Of a stretch of DNA of 44,535 nucleotides, positions 3,305-8,218 are shown in pieces. The DNA comes from Clostridiaceae bacterium. Lineage in GTDB: Bacteria; Bacillota; Clostridia; DSM-8532. Within the stretch, counting starts at the first letter, position 1; every line of letters begins with the position of its first letter. Location of the stretch: assembly GCA_012728015.1 (NCBI GenBank), contig JAAYFY010000065.1:1-44535 (forward strand), written 5' to 3'. The notes below the pieces were generated by a model. The model did not search any database. It saw only the letters and a list, made by a program, of their open reading frames with translations, and had not been told where the DNA came from. The translations under genes and the position numbers were made by a program.

Positions 3305-5629
3305 CTAATCCGCCACCAGATACATGAACTCCACATCCACCACTTCACCTTTCGGGAGAAGCGTACCCGGTTCATACTGCTGTCTCAGCGCGACGCCCTC
3401 GCCCCTGATGCGTATGTTTAGTCCGACGTTCTTCATTGCGGTTATAGCCTCATCCATAGTCTTGTTGATAAGGTTTGGCATGGACACCCTGTTATCCTCA
3501 GGCCTTCCTTCGGTATAGAGTATCACCGCTGAATTCTGTGGGATGCTGAAATCGGCCTTTGGTGTCTGGTCAAGCACCATCGCGCCCTCGTCCTGCGGAC
3601 CTTCCACTATGAATTTCAGGCCGTAAGCCTTCAGCTTCTCCGCGGCTTCCGCGAGTGTCATCCCCGTTACAGCGGGCACGTAGACCTCCTCGGTCATCTG
3701 CTTCAGCTCTTCATCGCTGTACTGCCTTTCCACCTGCAGGTATTCAAGGATACCCTCACAGAGCTTCCCGGCAACAGGAGCCGCCAGTATGCCGCCGGAC
3801 CTTAAGTGCATCTCCACCTGGGGATGGTCCAGAATCACCAGCACAACAATCTCAGGCTTCTCGGCAGGGGCAAACGCGACAAACGATACCACATACCGGC
3901 CTTCGGATTCGGTCTGCAGGGTTTCGGACGTCCCGGTCTTGCCGGCAATCCTGTATCCGCTCACATAAGCATTCTTTCCTGTTCCCTCTGAAACTACACC
4001 CTCCAGTATGGTTCTGATGGTCCTGGAGGTTTCTTCAGAGATTACTTTCCTTACCACCTGTGGCTCAAACTTCTGTATTATGTTCCCGCTGCTATCGGCT
4101 ATCTGCTTCACCAGCATGGGTTTCATAAGGTTCCCGCCGTTGGCGATGGCACAGTAGGCGGTGGCAAGCTGGATAGGGCTTATCTGGAAGCGCTGGCCGA
4201 ACCCGGCCACCGCCAGGTCTATCTCCTTGGGATCCTTATGCCACAGGTTGCGGTACTCCTCATCTGAGGGCTCGCCGGCAATCTCCAGCCCGGTCCGTTT
4301 TTGGAACCCGAACATCCTTACATAAGTATAAAACTTGTCGATGCCGACCGCCAGAGCTTCCTGCACAAAAACAGGGTTGCAGGAGTTGTAGACCGCATGG
4401 GTGAAGTCTTCCGAGCCATGCCCGCCCGCACGCCAGCAGTTGATGGTATGCCCTGCCAACGAGTAGGGTTTGCATACCACACTGGTTTCGGGCGTCACCA
4501 CGCCCTCTTCCAGCGCGGCGGCGGCGGTGATAGCCTTGAATGTGGACCCGGGCTCGTAAGTGTCGTTGACCGCCTTATTGCGGAACACGGTCTTCCAGAG
4601 CAGCTCAGTATCCTCAACGCTACCGAAGCCCAGCCAGTCCGAGTCATCGACAAAGCCAGGCCTGGCGTCGGGATGGTTGGGGTCGAAATCGGGATAGGAC
4701 GCCATCGCCAGAATCTCCCCGGTGTTGGGATCCATCACTATGGCAGCGGCCCCCCTCTTTAGATTATAATCCAGAACGGCCTGCTCGAGGGCTTTCTCAG
4801 TAAAGAACTGTATGGTTTCATCTAAAGTGAGAAATATATCGTAGCCGTCCACAGCCTCTATATACCGTTCTTTGCTGAACTTGATGGGCCTTCCGTGAAC
4901 ATCGGCCTCACTCATGATCTTGCCCGGCATGCCTTTCAGGGTGGCGTCGAATTTCAGTTCTATCCCGGCCAGTCCCTGGTCGTCAACTCCTGTAAAGCCA
5001 AGGACATGGGCCGCCAGGCTGCCGTTGGGATAGTAGCGTTTTGAATCCTCGTCTATGTATATGTTGAGCACGCCCATCTCTTCTACGACATATTTCCTCA
5101 CTTTCGCGCCCAGCTCCCTGTCGATCTTCCTCTTTACAAACTCGAACCTTGAATTCCTGTAAAATATTTCCATGATGTCCGCGGCGTCCATGTCAAGGAG
5201 TTCAGCCAACCCTTCGGCTATCTCACCGAGCCTTTCGGGTTTTCCCTCAAACTCGCTTCTCAAGGCATTGGGATTGACCGACACGGTATCCACCGAAGCG
5301 CTGATAGCGAGCCCTTTCCCATTCCTGTCATAGATGGTGCCACGCTTGGGATTGATCATCCTCTTTTGGGTCTGGGCATGATAAGCCTTTTTCTGGTACT
5401 CCTCACCCTTCACAAACTGGATGAAGCCGACCCTGTAAAGCATGAAAAAAAGCGACAGGGTAAAGACTATCAGCATGAAGAGTTCCCTTCTTTTTAGTTT
5501 TCCTGTGTTCGGCTGTTTTGGAACTTCTTCTGCCTTCTTTTTCTTCCTGACGCTCTGTAAATCGACCGGAGTCTTTGATGCAGTCTTGCGGCGCATATCT
5601 GGCATGTGTCTGCGGTTACTGCCTTTCAT
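3305..5629 (-). CDS. Class B penicillin-binding protein with two PASTA domains (FtsI/PBP2B/SpoVD family)
   Basis: A 774-residue membrane-anchored D,D-transpeptidase that cross-links peptidoglycan, probably for septation (PBP2B/FtsI role) or spore cortex (SpoVD role). In order: a basic N-terminus, one membrane helix (about 49-71), a dimerisation domain with RGTIYDRNG, then the transpeptidase domain with STFK (Ser362), SCN (from 416) and KTGT (from 564), and two C-terminal PASTA repeats (about 650-706 and 716-774). SpoVD usually has one PASTA domain, so two lean towards the PBP2B/PBP2x type. I chose the ATG at 5627-5629 because an AGGGG site lies 8 nt upstream; an in-frame TTG at 5671 would add 14 residues and lacks a good site. 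Confidence 0.93.
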   Translation of the reverse strand: MKGSNRRHMPDMRRKTASKTPVDLQSVRKKKKAEEVPKQPNTGKLKRRELFMLIVFTLSLFFMLYRVGFIQFVKGEEYQKKAYHAQTQKRMINPKRGTIYDRNGKGLAISASVDTVSVNPNALRSEFEGKPERLGEIAEGLAELLDMDAADIMEIFYRNSRFEFVKRKIDRELGAKVRKYVVEEMGVLNIYIDEDSKRYYPNGSLAAHVLGFTGVDDQGLAGIELKFDATLKGMPGKIMSEADVHGRPIKFSKERYIEAVDGYDIFLTLDETIQFFTEKALEQAVLDYNLKRGAAAIVMDPNTGEILAMASYPDFDPNHPDARPGFVDDSDWLGFGSVEDTELLWKTVFRNKAVNDTYEPGSTFKAITAAAALEEGVVTPETSVVCKPYSLAGHTINCWRAGGHGSEDFTHAVYNSCNPVFVQEALAVGIDKFYTYVRMFGFQKRTGLEIAGEPSDEEYRNLWHKDPKEIDLAVAGFGQRFQISPIQLATAYCAIANGGNLMKPMLVKQIADSSGNIIQKFEPQVVRKVISEETSRTIRTILEGVVSEGTGKNAYVSGYRIAGKTGTSETLQTESEGRYVVSFVAFAPAEKPEIVVLVILDHPQVEMHLRSGGILAAPVAGKLCEGILEYLQVERQYSDEELKQMTEEVYVPAVTGMTLAEAAEKLKAYGLKFIVEGPQDEGAMVLDQTPKADFSIPQNSAVILYTEGRPEDNRVSMPNLINKTMDEAITAMKNVGLNIRIRGEGVALRQQYEPGTLLPKGEVVDVEFMYLVAD

Positions 5630-5784: not shown

Positions 5785-5809
5785 GGCGGCCGTTCATGGA
5801 AAGGCCGCC
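5785..5809 (-). other. RNA hairpin over the ftsL stop codon
   Basis: A perfect 7-bp stem, GGCGGCC against GGCCGCC, with an 11-nt loop that contains the ftsL TGA. No T-run follows on the minus strand, so it is not a normal terminator. A second palindrome, CCGGCC-A-GGCCGG, lies at 5763-5775. The 164-nt spacer before the PBP gene otherwise holds no gene; the hairpins could affect mRNA processing or ribosome release, which is inference. Confidence 0.5.
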
Positions 5810-6306
5810 TGTATCGCATCAAGCATTCCTTTCAGGAACGGCTTTTGGTTGTTTTTGGTTGCCTGGTCTATGTACTGCTGGTCCAGCACAACATTGTAGT
5901 CGTTCTTCGGAACACTTACCGGAATGATCTGGAACCGGTCAGGCTTATGCATGCCCATTTCGGTTTCAGCCACCTGCTTCACTTTGTCAAGGTCGATGCT
6001 GGTTTCAATTTCAACCTTAAGGAGCCTGTTTTCGTTCCTCAGCGCGTTATACTCCTCATTCATCCTGTTCATTGCGGAGTTCAGGTCCGCCAGGACCGAG
6101 AAGCGGTACAGCACGACAAAACCCATTAATGCCAGCGCGACGACGCAGAAGAACAACCTGGCCTTGGGAACATGGGCATAGGCGGGAACAGCTGCCCTTG
6201 ATGATTTGGGCCTGCTCTTTTCGGGCTGGCGGGCTTCCTGCCTTTCAGGTCTCTGGGGCAGTTTGGGCGCCGCGCTGCCGTAGATATAACTCATCCTGTG
6301 TTCCAT
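5794..6306 (-). CDS. ftsL: FtsL-like cell division protein
   Basis: A 170-residue bitopic membrane protein: a basic proline-rich cytoplasmic tail of about 48 residues, one membrane helix (about 50-68, ARLFFCVVALALMGFVVLYR), then a coiled coil (about 72-105, with NRMNEEYNALRNENRLL) and a short extracytoplasmic tail. This architecture, plus position between rsmH and the septal PBP gene, is that of FtsL, which joins DivIB and DivIC in the divisome; sequence conservation in the family is low, so the call rests on topology and context. GGAGG lies 9 nt before the ATG. Longer than the typical ~120 residues because of the N-terminal tail. Confidence 0.85.
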   Translation of the reverse strand: MEHRMSYIYGSAAPKLPQRPERQEARQPEKSRPKSSRAAVPAYAHVPKARLFFCVVALALMGFVVLYRFSVLADLNSAMNRMNEEYNALRNENRLLKVEIETSIDLDKVKQVAETEMGMHKPDRFQIIPVSVPKNDYNVVLDQQYIDQATKNNQKPFLKGMLDAIQAAFP

Positions 6307-6792
6307 GCCTCTTCGCCTCCCTTTACCAATTCTTCCCTAGTATATTGGGTTAACCGCTTCCCAGCGGGTGTATGCCGTACAGATTCCGCTCCTCCAAAGA
6401 GAACAACGTGGCGTACCTTTCTGTAACGCCACAGCCCCTGACACATAGAAGATGAAGTCCCGGGTCCGCCAATCGGGCAGACCCCGGGTAAGATCAAATC
6501 GGTTTTTGCCTCTTACAAGCACTTGTCTTTTGTACGGTTTACTCTTCTGTTCTCTCTTTGTCTTTCTTTTGTAAACTTCTCCTTTTTATCTTTCGTAACC
6601 ATTCAATTGGTTATCTTTTGCATAGATCAAATCTTTAGTAGCTCAAATGCCCCGGCAAGCGTTTATCTTTGGTGACTCCCGGATCAGTTGGATAATGATT
6701 GCGCTTTTGTTCTTCAAAAATCTTTAGTTCCTTATGGCTTTCTTCTTTTGTTTATCAAAAACTTCGTCACCGGTATAAGCTTCGTTAAACTT
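6307..6792 (-). other. 486-nt purine-rich spacer with several hairpins inside the dcw operon (candidate structured RNA)
   Basis: No convincing gene lies between rsmH and ftsL on either strand. On the minus (mRNA) strand the rsmH-proximal half is strongly purine-rich, with AAAGAT/AAAGA recurring about ten times. The ftsL-proximal half holds stems: TAACCA/TGGTTA (6596-6613), a CCCGGG-based stem (6459-6488), GTGGCGT/ACGCCAC (6408-6432) and CCGCT-GGGA-AGCGG with a GNRA-type tetraloop (6354-6367). No T-run follows any of them. Most dcw clusters have rsmH and ftsL close together, so the spacer is unusual. A processed leader or small RNA is possible but not shown. Confidence 0.45.
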
Positions 6793-7734
6793 TCAAATCT
6801 TTTCTGCGACCCTGAGTTTTGCGCTCCTGGCTCTTGGATTCTCATCCAGTTCGCTTTTGGATGCCGTTACTGGCTTCTTTGTTATGATCCTTATTTCGGG
6901 TTCCCTGCCGCAGACACACCGGGGGAAATCCCCGGGGCAAACGCATCCCTGTGCCCTGTCCCTGAAGGTTTGCTTTACTGTCCTGTCTTCCAGCGAGTGG
7001 AAGGTGATAACTGCCAGCCGGCCTCCCGGATTCAGGAGCCCGATAACCTCCTCCAGGGCTTTTCCCAGGACCTCCAGTTCCCTGTTGACCTGGATTCGTA
7101 TGGCCTGGAAGGTCCTTTTCGCGGGATGCGGTCCTTTCCTTCTCGCCGCCGCCGGTATGGCGGCCTTGATAATATCTGCCAGTTGGCCCGTTGTTGTTAT
7201 CTTTTGTATCTCCCGGAATTTTACAATGAATTCCGCTATCCGCGAGGCCCATTTTTCCTCTCCGTATTCCCGTATGATCCGGGCCAGCTCCTCGCGGTCC
7301 AGGTTGTTGACAACCCATGCGGCATCCCGTTCTTCTCTTTTGTCCATCCGCATGTCGAGGGGCGCGTCATGTCGGTAGCTGAATCCGCGTTCCCCCTCAT
7401 CCAACTGGTGGGAGGAAACACCAAGGTCCATAAGTACCCCGTCGACTGCCTTTATCTTTTGCATCCCGATTACTTCTCTTATGTTTTCAAAGTTCGTATG
7501 ACAAAGGACATATCGTCCCTGGGTCTGCACTTTTTCCAGCTTCTGTCCTGCTGCTTCTATGGCGTTCCGGTCCTGGTCGATCCCGATCAGGAATCCCTTT
7601 GGACCCAGACGCTTCAATATCTCGGACGAATGCCCCGCGCCTCCTAAAGTTGCGTCAACATATATGCCGTCGGCCCGTATATTCAGATATTCTATGCATT
7701 CATCCAGCATGACTGGTTTGTGTTCGAAAGTCAC
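6793..7734 (-). CDS. rsmH: RsmH (MraW), 16S rRNA C1402 N4-methyltransferase
   Basis: A 313-residue class I SAM-dependent methyltransferase that N4-methylates C1402 of 16S rRNA in the P site. The N-terminus [13 protein letters not shown] and SAM-binding [11 protein letters not shown] are diagnostic, followed by [40 protein letters not shown] and the C-terminal [10 protein letters not shown]. Length is normal. It starts with GTG, with AAGGA 9 nt upstream, 27 nt after the mraZ stop. It is the second gene of the dcw operon; the large spacer after it precedes ftsL. Confidence 0.97.
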
Positions 7735-7761: not shown

Positions 7762-8202
7762 TTACGGAAGGTTGATGGGCAGGCTGTCCAGTATCTCGTT
7801 AATGTCGTAAGAACTGGTGATCTCCTCGTATTTCTGCGGATCCCAGAGTTCCACCTTGGTGTCGACTCCGGCGAAAAGCACTTCCTTGGTTAAACCAGCC
7901 CATTCCCTGAGTTCCTGGGGAATCACGATCCGTCCCTGGCTGTCCAGGCTGCAAGTGACAGCGTTGGCGAAGTAGTGACGCATGATGGCACGGAAGTTTT
8001 GCCTGCTGGTCTGAAGGGTCTTGACCTTTTCCTCAAACTCCTCCCAGGCTTCCATGGGATACAGGTAGAGGTTCGTATCTTCACCCCGGGTGAGAATGAA
8101 TTCCTTACCCAGCTTATGGCGATAAGCGGCAGGCACGAAAACGCGATTCTTCGCGTCCATGGTATTCGTGTACTTGCCGTTAAAACCACTCACCACTTTC
8201 AC
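7762..8202 (-). CDS. mraZ: MraZ, dcw-operon transcriptional regulator
   Basis: A 146-residue double SpoVT/AbrB-fold protein that binds DNA as a ring and represses its own dcw operon. The two half-repeats are visible: NTMDAKNRVFVPAAYR near the N-terminus and CSLDSQGRIVIPQELREWAG in the second half. I place the start at the GTG at 8200-8202: a GGAG (8211-8214) lies 8 nt upstream and the length matches the usual ~143 residues. The reading frame stays open upstream to a GTG at 8247, but that codon lies inside the promoter spacer and cannot be transcribed from it. GTGs at 8194-8196 and 8191-8193 are alternatives. Confidence 0.93.
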   Translation of the reverse strand: MKVVSGFNGKYTNTMDAKNRVFVPAAYRHKLGKEFILTRGEDTNLYLYPMEAWEEFEEKVKTLQTSRQNFRAIMRHYFANAVTCSLDSQGRIVIPQELREWAGLTKEVLFAGVDTKVELWDPQKYEEITSSYDINEILDSLPINLP

Positions 8203-8218
8203 CCACTTTGCTCCACTT
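8193..8218 (-). promoter_or_regulatory. Three MraZ boxes, 10 bp apart
   Basis: AAGTGG occurs at 8213-8218, 8203-8208 and 8193-8198 on the minus strand, exactly one per 10 bp, with a partial out-of-phase fourth (AGTGG) at 8186-8190. Known MraZ operators are runs of such repeats (AAAGTG-type in mollicutes, TGGG-type in E. coli). They lie just downstream of the predicted transcription start and overlap the ribosome site and start codon of mraZ itself. Confidence 0.8.

Follow-up and report, generated by a model that had tools for sequence, protein, structure and literature searches.

Two RNA-binding proteins that act through short sites offer some of the closest parallels to the locus described here. 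TRAP binds 11 (G/U)AG triplets that stand 2-3 nt apart and are wound round its 11-mer ring. The consensus site of CsrA is RUACARGGAUGU. The scheme by which TRAP brings about attenuation has been described (PMC3913778), and a cis-acting RNA is also on record at the gene cluster that concerns us, the mraW RNA motif RF01746, which is listed for Actinomycetales (PMC2864571). In pneumococcus, there is evidence that the KH-domain proteins EloR and KhpA bind 5' UTRs, that of ftsA included, and the pair is localised at the division ring (PMC6403258).

How the levels of FtsL and of the septal PBP are controlled is a central question in division. In Clostridia, SpoVD/SpoVE-type enzymes encoded in the dcw cluster can serve sporulation septation, as in C. 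difficile (PMC10693644). Here we describe a conserved, strand-specific array of spaced motifs in RNA that is tied to the dcw cluster.

Results

The window, that is the whole stretch of 44,535 nt that was analysed, belongs to Thermoclostridium-like Clostridia, and its nearest named relative is T. caenicola (L074). On the minus strand the gene order is mraZ, rsmH, spacer, ftsL, a SpoVD-like PBP, murE and murF. The initial annotation had singled out a gene-free spacer of 486 nt between rsmH and ftsL, and this is confirmed: the spacer occupies 6307-6792, between the end of rsmH at 6793 (6793-7734, minus strand; TIGR00006) and the start of ftsL at 6306 (5794-6306, minus strand; TIGR02209, below cut-off). 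The ribosome-binding site of ftsL, AAAGGGAGG (6316-6324, minus strand), shows a GGGAGG that is invariant in the genus comparison. The PBP, which carries PASTA domains, lies 3' of ftsL (3305-5596, minus strand), and its best model is TIGR02214 spoVD_pbp, with a score below the cut-off of that model. Most other Clostridia have an rsmH-ftsL spacer of 0-60 nt, without an array. A degraded protein gene was considered for the spacer and rejected, there being no conserved frame and only short ORFs that differ among relatives.

Two further features of the locus deserve mention. Upstream of mraZ, three or four GTGGN repeats with a period of about 10 nt (8186-8217, minus strand) are the expected MraZ boxes, and beside them lies a promoter-like TTGACG-17-TAGAAT (8254-8226). 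Separately, the PBP at 3305-5596 is most SpoVD-like, which makes sporulation septation a possible role of the element, instead of, or besides, vegetative division.

Read as mRNA, the 5' half of the spacer is 66% purine, which bears out the earlier description of a purine-rich half with AAAGA(T) repeats. The repeats had thus been seen, but not what is essential about them, namely that they form an array of spaced motifs conserved across Clostridia. Strict copies of ACNAARGA number 7 in this half, against a mean of 0.28 and a maximum of 3 in 200 dinucleotide shuffles, and a weight matrix places 9 sites in the array (6526-6751, minus strand). In the order of transcription, these start at 6751 (ACAAAAGA, 6744-6751), 6728 (ACUAAAGA, 6721-6728), 6673 (ACCAAAGA, 6666-6673), 6639 (ACUAAAGA again, 6632-6639), 6621 (GCAAAAGA, 6614-6621, degenerate), 6596 (ACGAAAGA, 6589-6596), 6572 (ACAAAAGA, 6565-6572), 6550 (ACAGAAGA, 6543-6550, degenerate) and 6533 (ACAAAAGA, 6526-6533), all on the minus strand.

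Each of the 31 spacers in the first comparison set is enriched in the motif. The rsmH-ftsL spacers that were retrieved, 29 loci of the window's family plus those of two other families, are all 259-960 nt long and packed with motifs. Across arrays there are about 4-28 sites of 8-12 nt each, and the weight matrix (310 sites), which was trained on part of the sequences that it scored, gives the consensus [UC]AC(n)AA(A/G)GA[UA]AA on the mRNA strand. Its core of A, C, A, A, G, A is nearly invariant, position three is variable (A 74%) and +5 is A or G. In one rsmH-ftsL spacer (L038, genome G013) the array has been expanded as 39-nt tandem repeats with alternating 25/14-nt spacing, a recent amplification.

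There is a strand bias: in 65 array regions the mRNA strand carries 517 strict sites and its complement 2; the reversed motif occurs 22 times. One could imagine that such a purine-rich tract simply stays unstructured and thereby stabilises the mRNA or helps to load ribosomes, the motif amounting to avoidance of structure and RNase/Rho sites with no specific binder. The tract is indeed A/G-rich and folds less than its shuffles do (z +0.77 for the motif half in the window), and in several families the array lies 25-36 nt from the ribosome-binding site. Yet an unstructured tract needs neither a consensus of 8-12 nt with a near-invariant core nor regular spacing or hairpin compensation, and the motif is 23 times commoner than its reverse, which has the same composition. 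We regard this explanation as unlikely.

The distance between neighbouring sites peaks at 22-25 nt. Longer gaps often hold a hairpin, and subtracting it brings the distance back to about 16-25 nt. We analysed 130 long gaps, a set that includes related genomes, with three near-duplicates removed. Folding below -3 kcal/mol was found for 53 of them, where shuffles give 32.9 (sd 3.4), and a single hairpin together with a corrected distance of 16-25 nt for 29, where shuffles give 13.3 (sd 3.3); neither count was reached by any of 300 shuffles. When the gaps were slid by half as a control, the counts were 13 for folding and 7 for corrected distance. Most hairpins begin 4-5 nt past one motif and stop 4-7 nt short of the next; they keep this place among relatives while their sequences differ. 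Given the hairpin-corrected spacing and the strand bias, the best inference is that the array is read at the RNA level by a distance-sensitive reader.

An array of DNA operators, at which a dsDNA-binding protein such as a nucleoid or division regulator acts on transcription or on chromosome organisation near dcw, would share some of these properties, since a spacing of 22 nt is near two helical turns, the sites are many and their location in the cluster is conserved. A helical-phase statistic is even formally significant for periods of 10-11 nt, because distances of 22-25 nt dominate. However, the spacing is spread almost evenly over 22-25 nt, which turns the helix face, and the array, taken in the direction of transcription, is always within or just upstream of a coding region. 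A dsDNA binder would be indifferent to strand and to foldable inserts, whereas the motif stands on one strand only (517 to 2) and hairpin inserts are tolerated exactly where the single-strand distance is kept. DNA helical phasing was rejected as the explanation because hairpin inserts and strand bias point to RNA, and we consider a DNA operator array very improbable.

The initial annotation had also claimed at least four stems, one of them capped by a GNRA loop. We find three clear hairpins, all in the 3' part of the spacer. A strong hairpin, CCCGGGGUCUGCCC..GGCGGACCCGGG, lies 3' of the array (6459-6488, minus strand; about -21.7 kcal/mol) and is followed by a terminator-like one, GUGGCGUUAC..GUACGCCAC, with the U-rich tail GUUGUUCUCUUU (6396-6432, stem-loop 6408-6432, minus strand). 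The core of this half, 6395-6492, folds with a z of -2.83, a value that none of 200 shuffles reached. The folding of the whole spacer is within chance (z -0.97), and an unusual overall stability is thus unsupported. The third hairpin is small and has a GGGA loop (6354-6367, minus strand), so that the GNRA cap exists, but it is absent in the other members of the genus and was rejected as a key element (5 genomes compared).

All five genus genomes have both main hairpins. The stem and tail of the second are nearly invariant, as is the tail GUUGUUCUCUU within the genus, and the first contains one compensatory CG-to-UA pair. Conservation, which the initial annotation had proposed to check together with covariation, is strong, but the stems are mostly invariant in the genus and leave little covariation signal beyond that one clear pair; in the g2 set, too, the stems show few compensatory changes. 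The hairpin tails in the window are imperfect U runs, and a simple terminator scan makes no call.

We surveyed 391 genomes of the class with a three-site pattern and then fetched the surroundings of the matches, which came from 65 genomes. Arrays were found in the dcw cluster in 16 sampled families, one per cluster, at three alternative positions. In 11 families the array lies between rsmH and ftsL (f1, f2, f16, f26, f40, f54, f68, f72, f76, f80, and f29, where it precedes ftsL at the start of a contig), in three between mraZ and rsmH (f39, f48, f58) and in two upstream of mraZ (f15, f53); none of the clusters examined had arrays at two of the three positions. In each genome of the window's family, array-like matches fall almost without exception at the dcw site; the few others are coding-like tandem repeats or isolated. 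Outside Clostridia we found no dcw-like array: a slightly stricter pattern matched 3 of 398 genomes of the phylum, mostly from other classes, with repeats that are unlike dcw arrays and apparently coding, and the reversed-pattern control matched 3 genomes as well.

Genuine-looking arrays away from dcw are rare, and comprise the spoIVA leader of one f86 genome and 3' UTRs in f58 and f48. In two f58 genomes (L188:3788-4131, L191:3682-3913) the array stands directly 3' of the stop codon of a gene of 360-376 aa that has no clear Pfam family, with a convergent oxidoreductase gene next. In f48 (L192:3703-3824, L218:3752-3869), short arrays follow SLH-domain genes, again in a 3' UTR position.

Of the three functions first offered for the spacer, a site for an RNA-binding protein and a leader that uncouples ftsL and the PBP from the genes before them fit best. 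The third, a discrete small RNA processed from the spacer, would suit the strong hairpins and the terminator-like end that follow the array. It is not indicated by the rest of the evidence. A sequence scan found no promoter-like (sigma-70-like) site inside the spacer at 6307-6792, where an internal promoter ahead of ftsL was to be looked for. A search of Rfam release 15 gave the spacer no match, even with a limit of E<=1, and brought no family to the gathering threshold in 10 array loci. With the array shifting among three places in the cluster, a fixed RNA boundary is not conserved. We think a processed small RNA quite unlikely.

What follows an array differs among lineages. In the window's family (f1), nearly every rsmH-ftsL array is succeeded by a strong hairpin before ftsL, and a U-rich hairpin tail, UUUGUUGUCUU or similar, occurs in several of its genera and in f54 and f76. 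A terminator-like hairpin between the row of sites and the gene is seen in most of f1, in many members of f54 and f76 and in the spoIVA case. In the window's lineage, this arrangement suggests conditional termination. For arrays between mraZ and rsmH or before mraZ, about 25-50 nt separate the end of the array from the next start codon, and with few exceptions there is no terminator; termination control therefore cannot be the sole or universal mode.

The spoIVA leader (G390, f86; L205:3924-4485, minus strand) consists of a promoter-like sequence, about eight sites, an intrinsic terminator and the gene. The terminator, AAACAAGCCUUCGGGCUUGUUUUUUUU, is a textbook intrinsic one that stands about 60 nt before spoIVA, and it cannot serve an upstream gene because the gene upstream of the array is divergent. 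Judged by its sequence, the anatomy of this leader is that of an attenuator.

Which protein might bind? Of 27 array genomes, 12 have CsrA and 15 lack it, and 11 have Hfq and 16 lack it; six array families (f15, f39, f48, f53, f58, f72) lack both. Absence from so many array genomes excludes either protein as the general binder. An array of CsrA/RsmE or Hfq type, already refuted as universal, could hold locally only. It is true that UACAAAAGAU recalls the CsrA consensus and that Hfq binds A-rich repeats, but just about 9% of the 310 sites have the GGA core, with G at +5, that CsrA needs, and we give such an array next to no credence. Base pairing offers a different solution, in which the array would be the target or sponge of a small RNA with the seed UCUUUUGU. 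Multi-site sponges exist, and a short site that recurs on a single strand would suit one, but the free third base and the choice of A or G at +5 are unlike a strict seed, the array genomes that lack Hfq (16 of 27) would need an Hfq-free small RNA, and there is no Rfam match. This, too, strikes us as highly doubtful.

All 27 array genomes tested have the KH domain of KhpA/KhpB (PF13083), and 23 of them have Jag_N. These proteins are near-universal, and their presence is thus non-discriminating. A KH surface holds about four unpaired bases (PMC6403258), so a bipartite site of eight bases would suit two KH domains; a study of KhpB in E. faecalis names no motif (PMC10117718). To propose KhpA/KhpB as the binder is only a guess, and NusA is another possible candidate.

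Discussion

On balance, we favour the view that the spacer is a cis-acting element of the dcw mRNA, on whose row of sites a putative ssRNA-binding protein tunes ftsL and the SpoVD-like PBP. From the sequence comparisons we infer that several copies of one such protein would occupy the single-stranded sites, 22-25 nt apart, and tune expression of the next genes. Occupancy of the row would set how much of the mraZ-rsmH transcript continues into ftsL and the PBP gene. In the window's lineage, the decision would fall between termination and read-through at one or two strong hairpins before ftsL, one of them with a U-rich tail; where no hairpin follows the array, the protein may act on the translation or stability of the next gene.

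We envision, with about even confidence for and against, that the array works as a 'ruler'. A putative RNA-binding protein would assemble on ACnAArGA sites about 22 nt apart and measure the single-strand distance between them, with hairpins looped out. Across much of Clostridia it would govern the genes of division and of the sporulation septum, with spoIVA an example of the other genes that it would control in some lineages. The arrays would then constitute an undescribed class of regulatory RNA.

A post-transcriptional element that 16 sampled families share in their dcw clusters would imply an RNA-binding regulator of division that has so far gone undescribed. Because the motif is short and repeated and the array is single-copy per genome, the binder should be directly fishable. 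The hairpin-compensated spacing is, moreover, a clean natural experiment on how a protein measures single-stranded RNA.

We found no description of the array in the openly licensed literature, where a search with ACAAAAGA gives only unrelated papers among those listed and none was found that joins all the terms on Clostridium thermocellum and ftsL. How, then, does it compare with described systems? At the dcw cluster, MraZ boxes are likewise a repeat array, controlling the cluster as the RNA array may do, but they are a DNA operator of GTGGN repeats upstream of mraZ with a period of about 10 bp and another sequence, and the array consensus has no TGGG. The mraW motif RF01746 is another cis-acting RNA of this cluster; it is a structured RNA of Actinomycetales, whereas the array gives no Rfam match. 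The KH pair KhpA/KhpB (EloR/Jag) resembles the putative binder in binding ssRNA and in acting on pneumococcal division genes through UTRs (PMC6403258), although neither that paper nor PMC10117718 gives a sequence motif or array, and a link to the array is hypothetical.

The likeness is of another kind with the multi-site RNAs. As in the trp leader of Bacillus subtilis, many short single-stranded sites precede the genes thought to be regulated, in some lineages with a terminator-like hairpin between. Unlike the GAG/UAG triplets of TRAP, which are 2-3 nt apart, the sites of the array are ACNAARGA, span 8-12 nt, stand 22-25 nt apart, admit hairpin inserts and belong to division genes. As on CsrB/RsmZ-type RNAs, where CsrA/RsmE sites recur, single-stranded purine-rich motifs are repeated between hairpins, but the array has no GGA core and many array genomes have no CsrA. 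Thus the array is akin in principle to the multi-site RNAs of TRAP or CsrA and is a member of neither group, and its distance-measuring aspect has a fair chance of being new.
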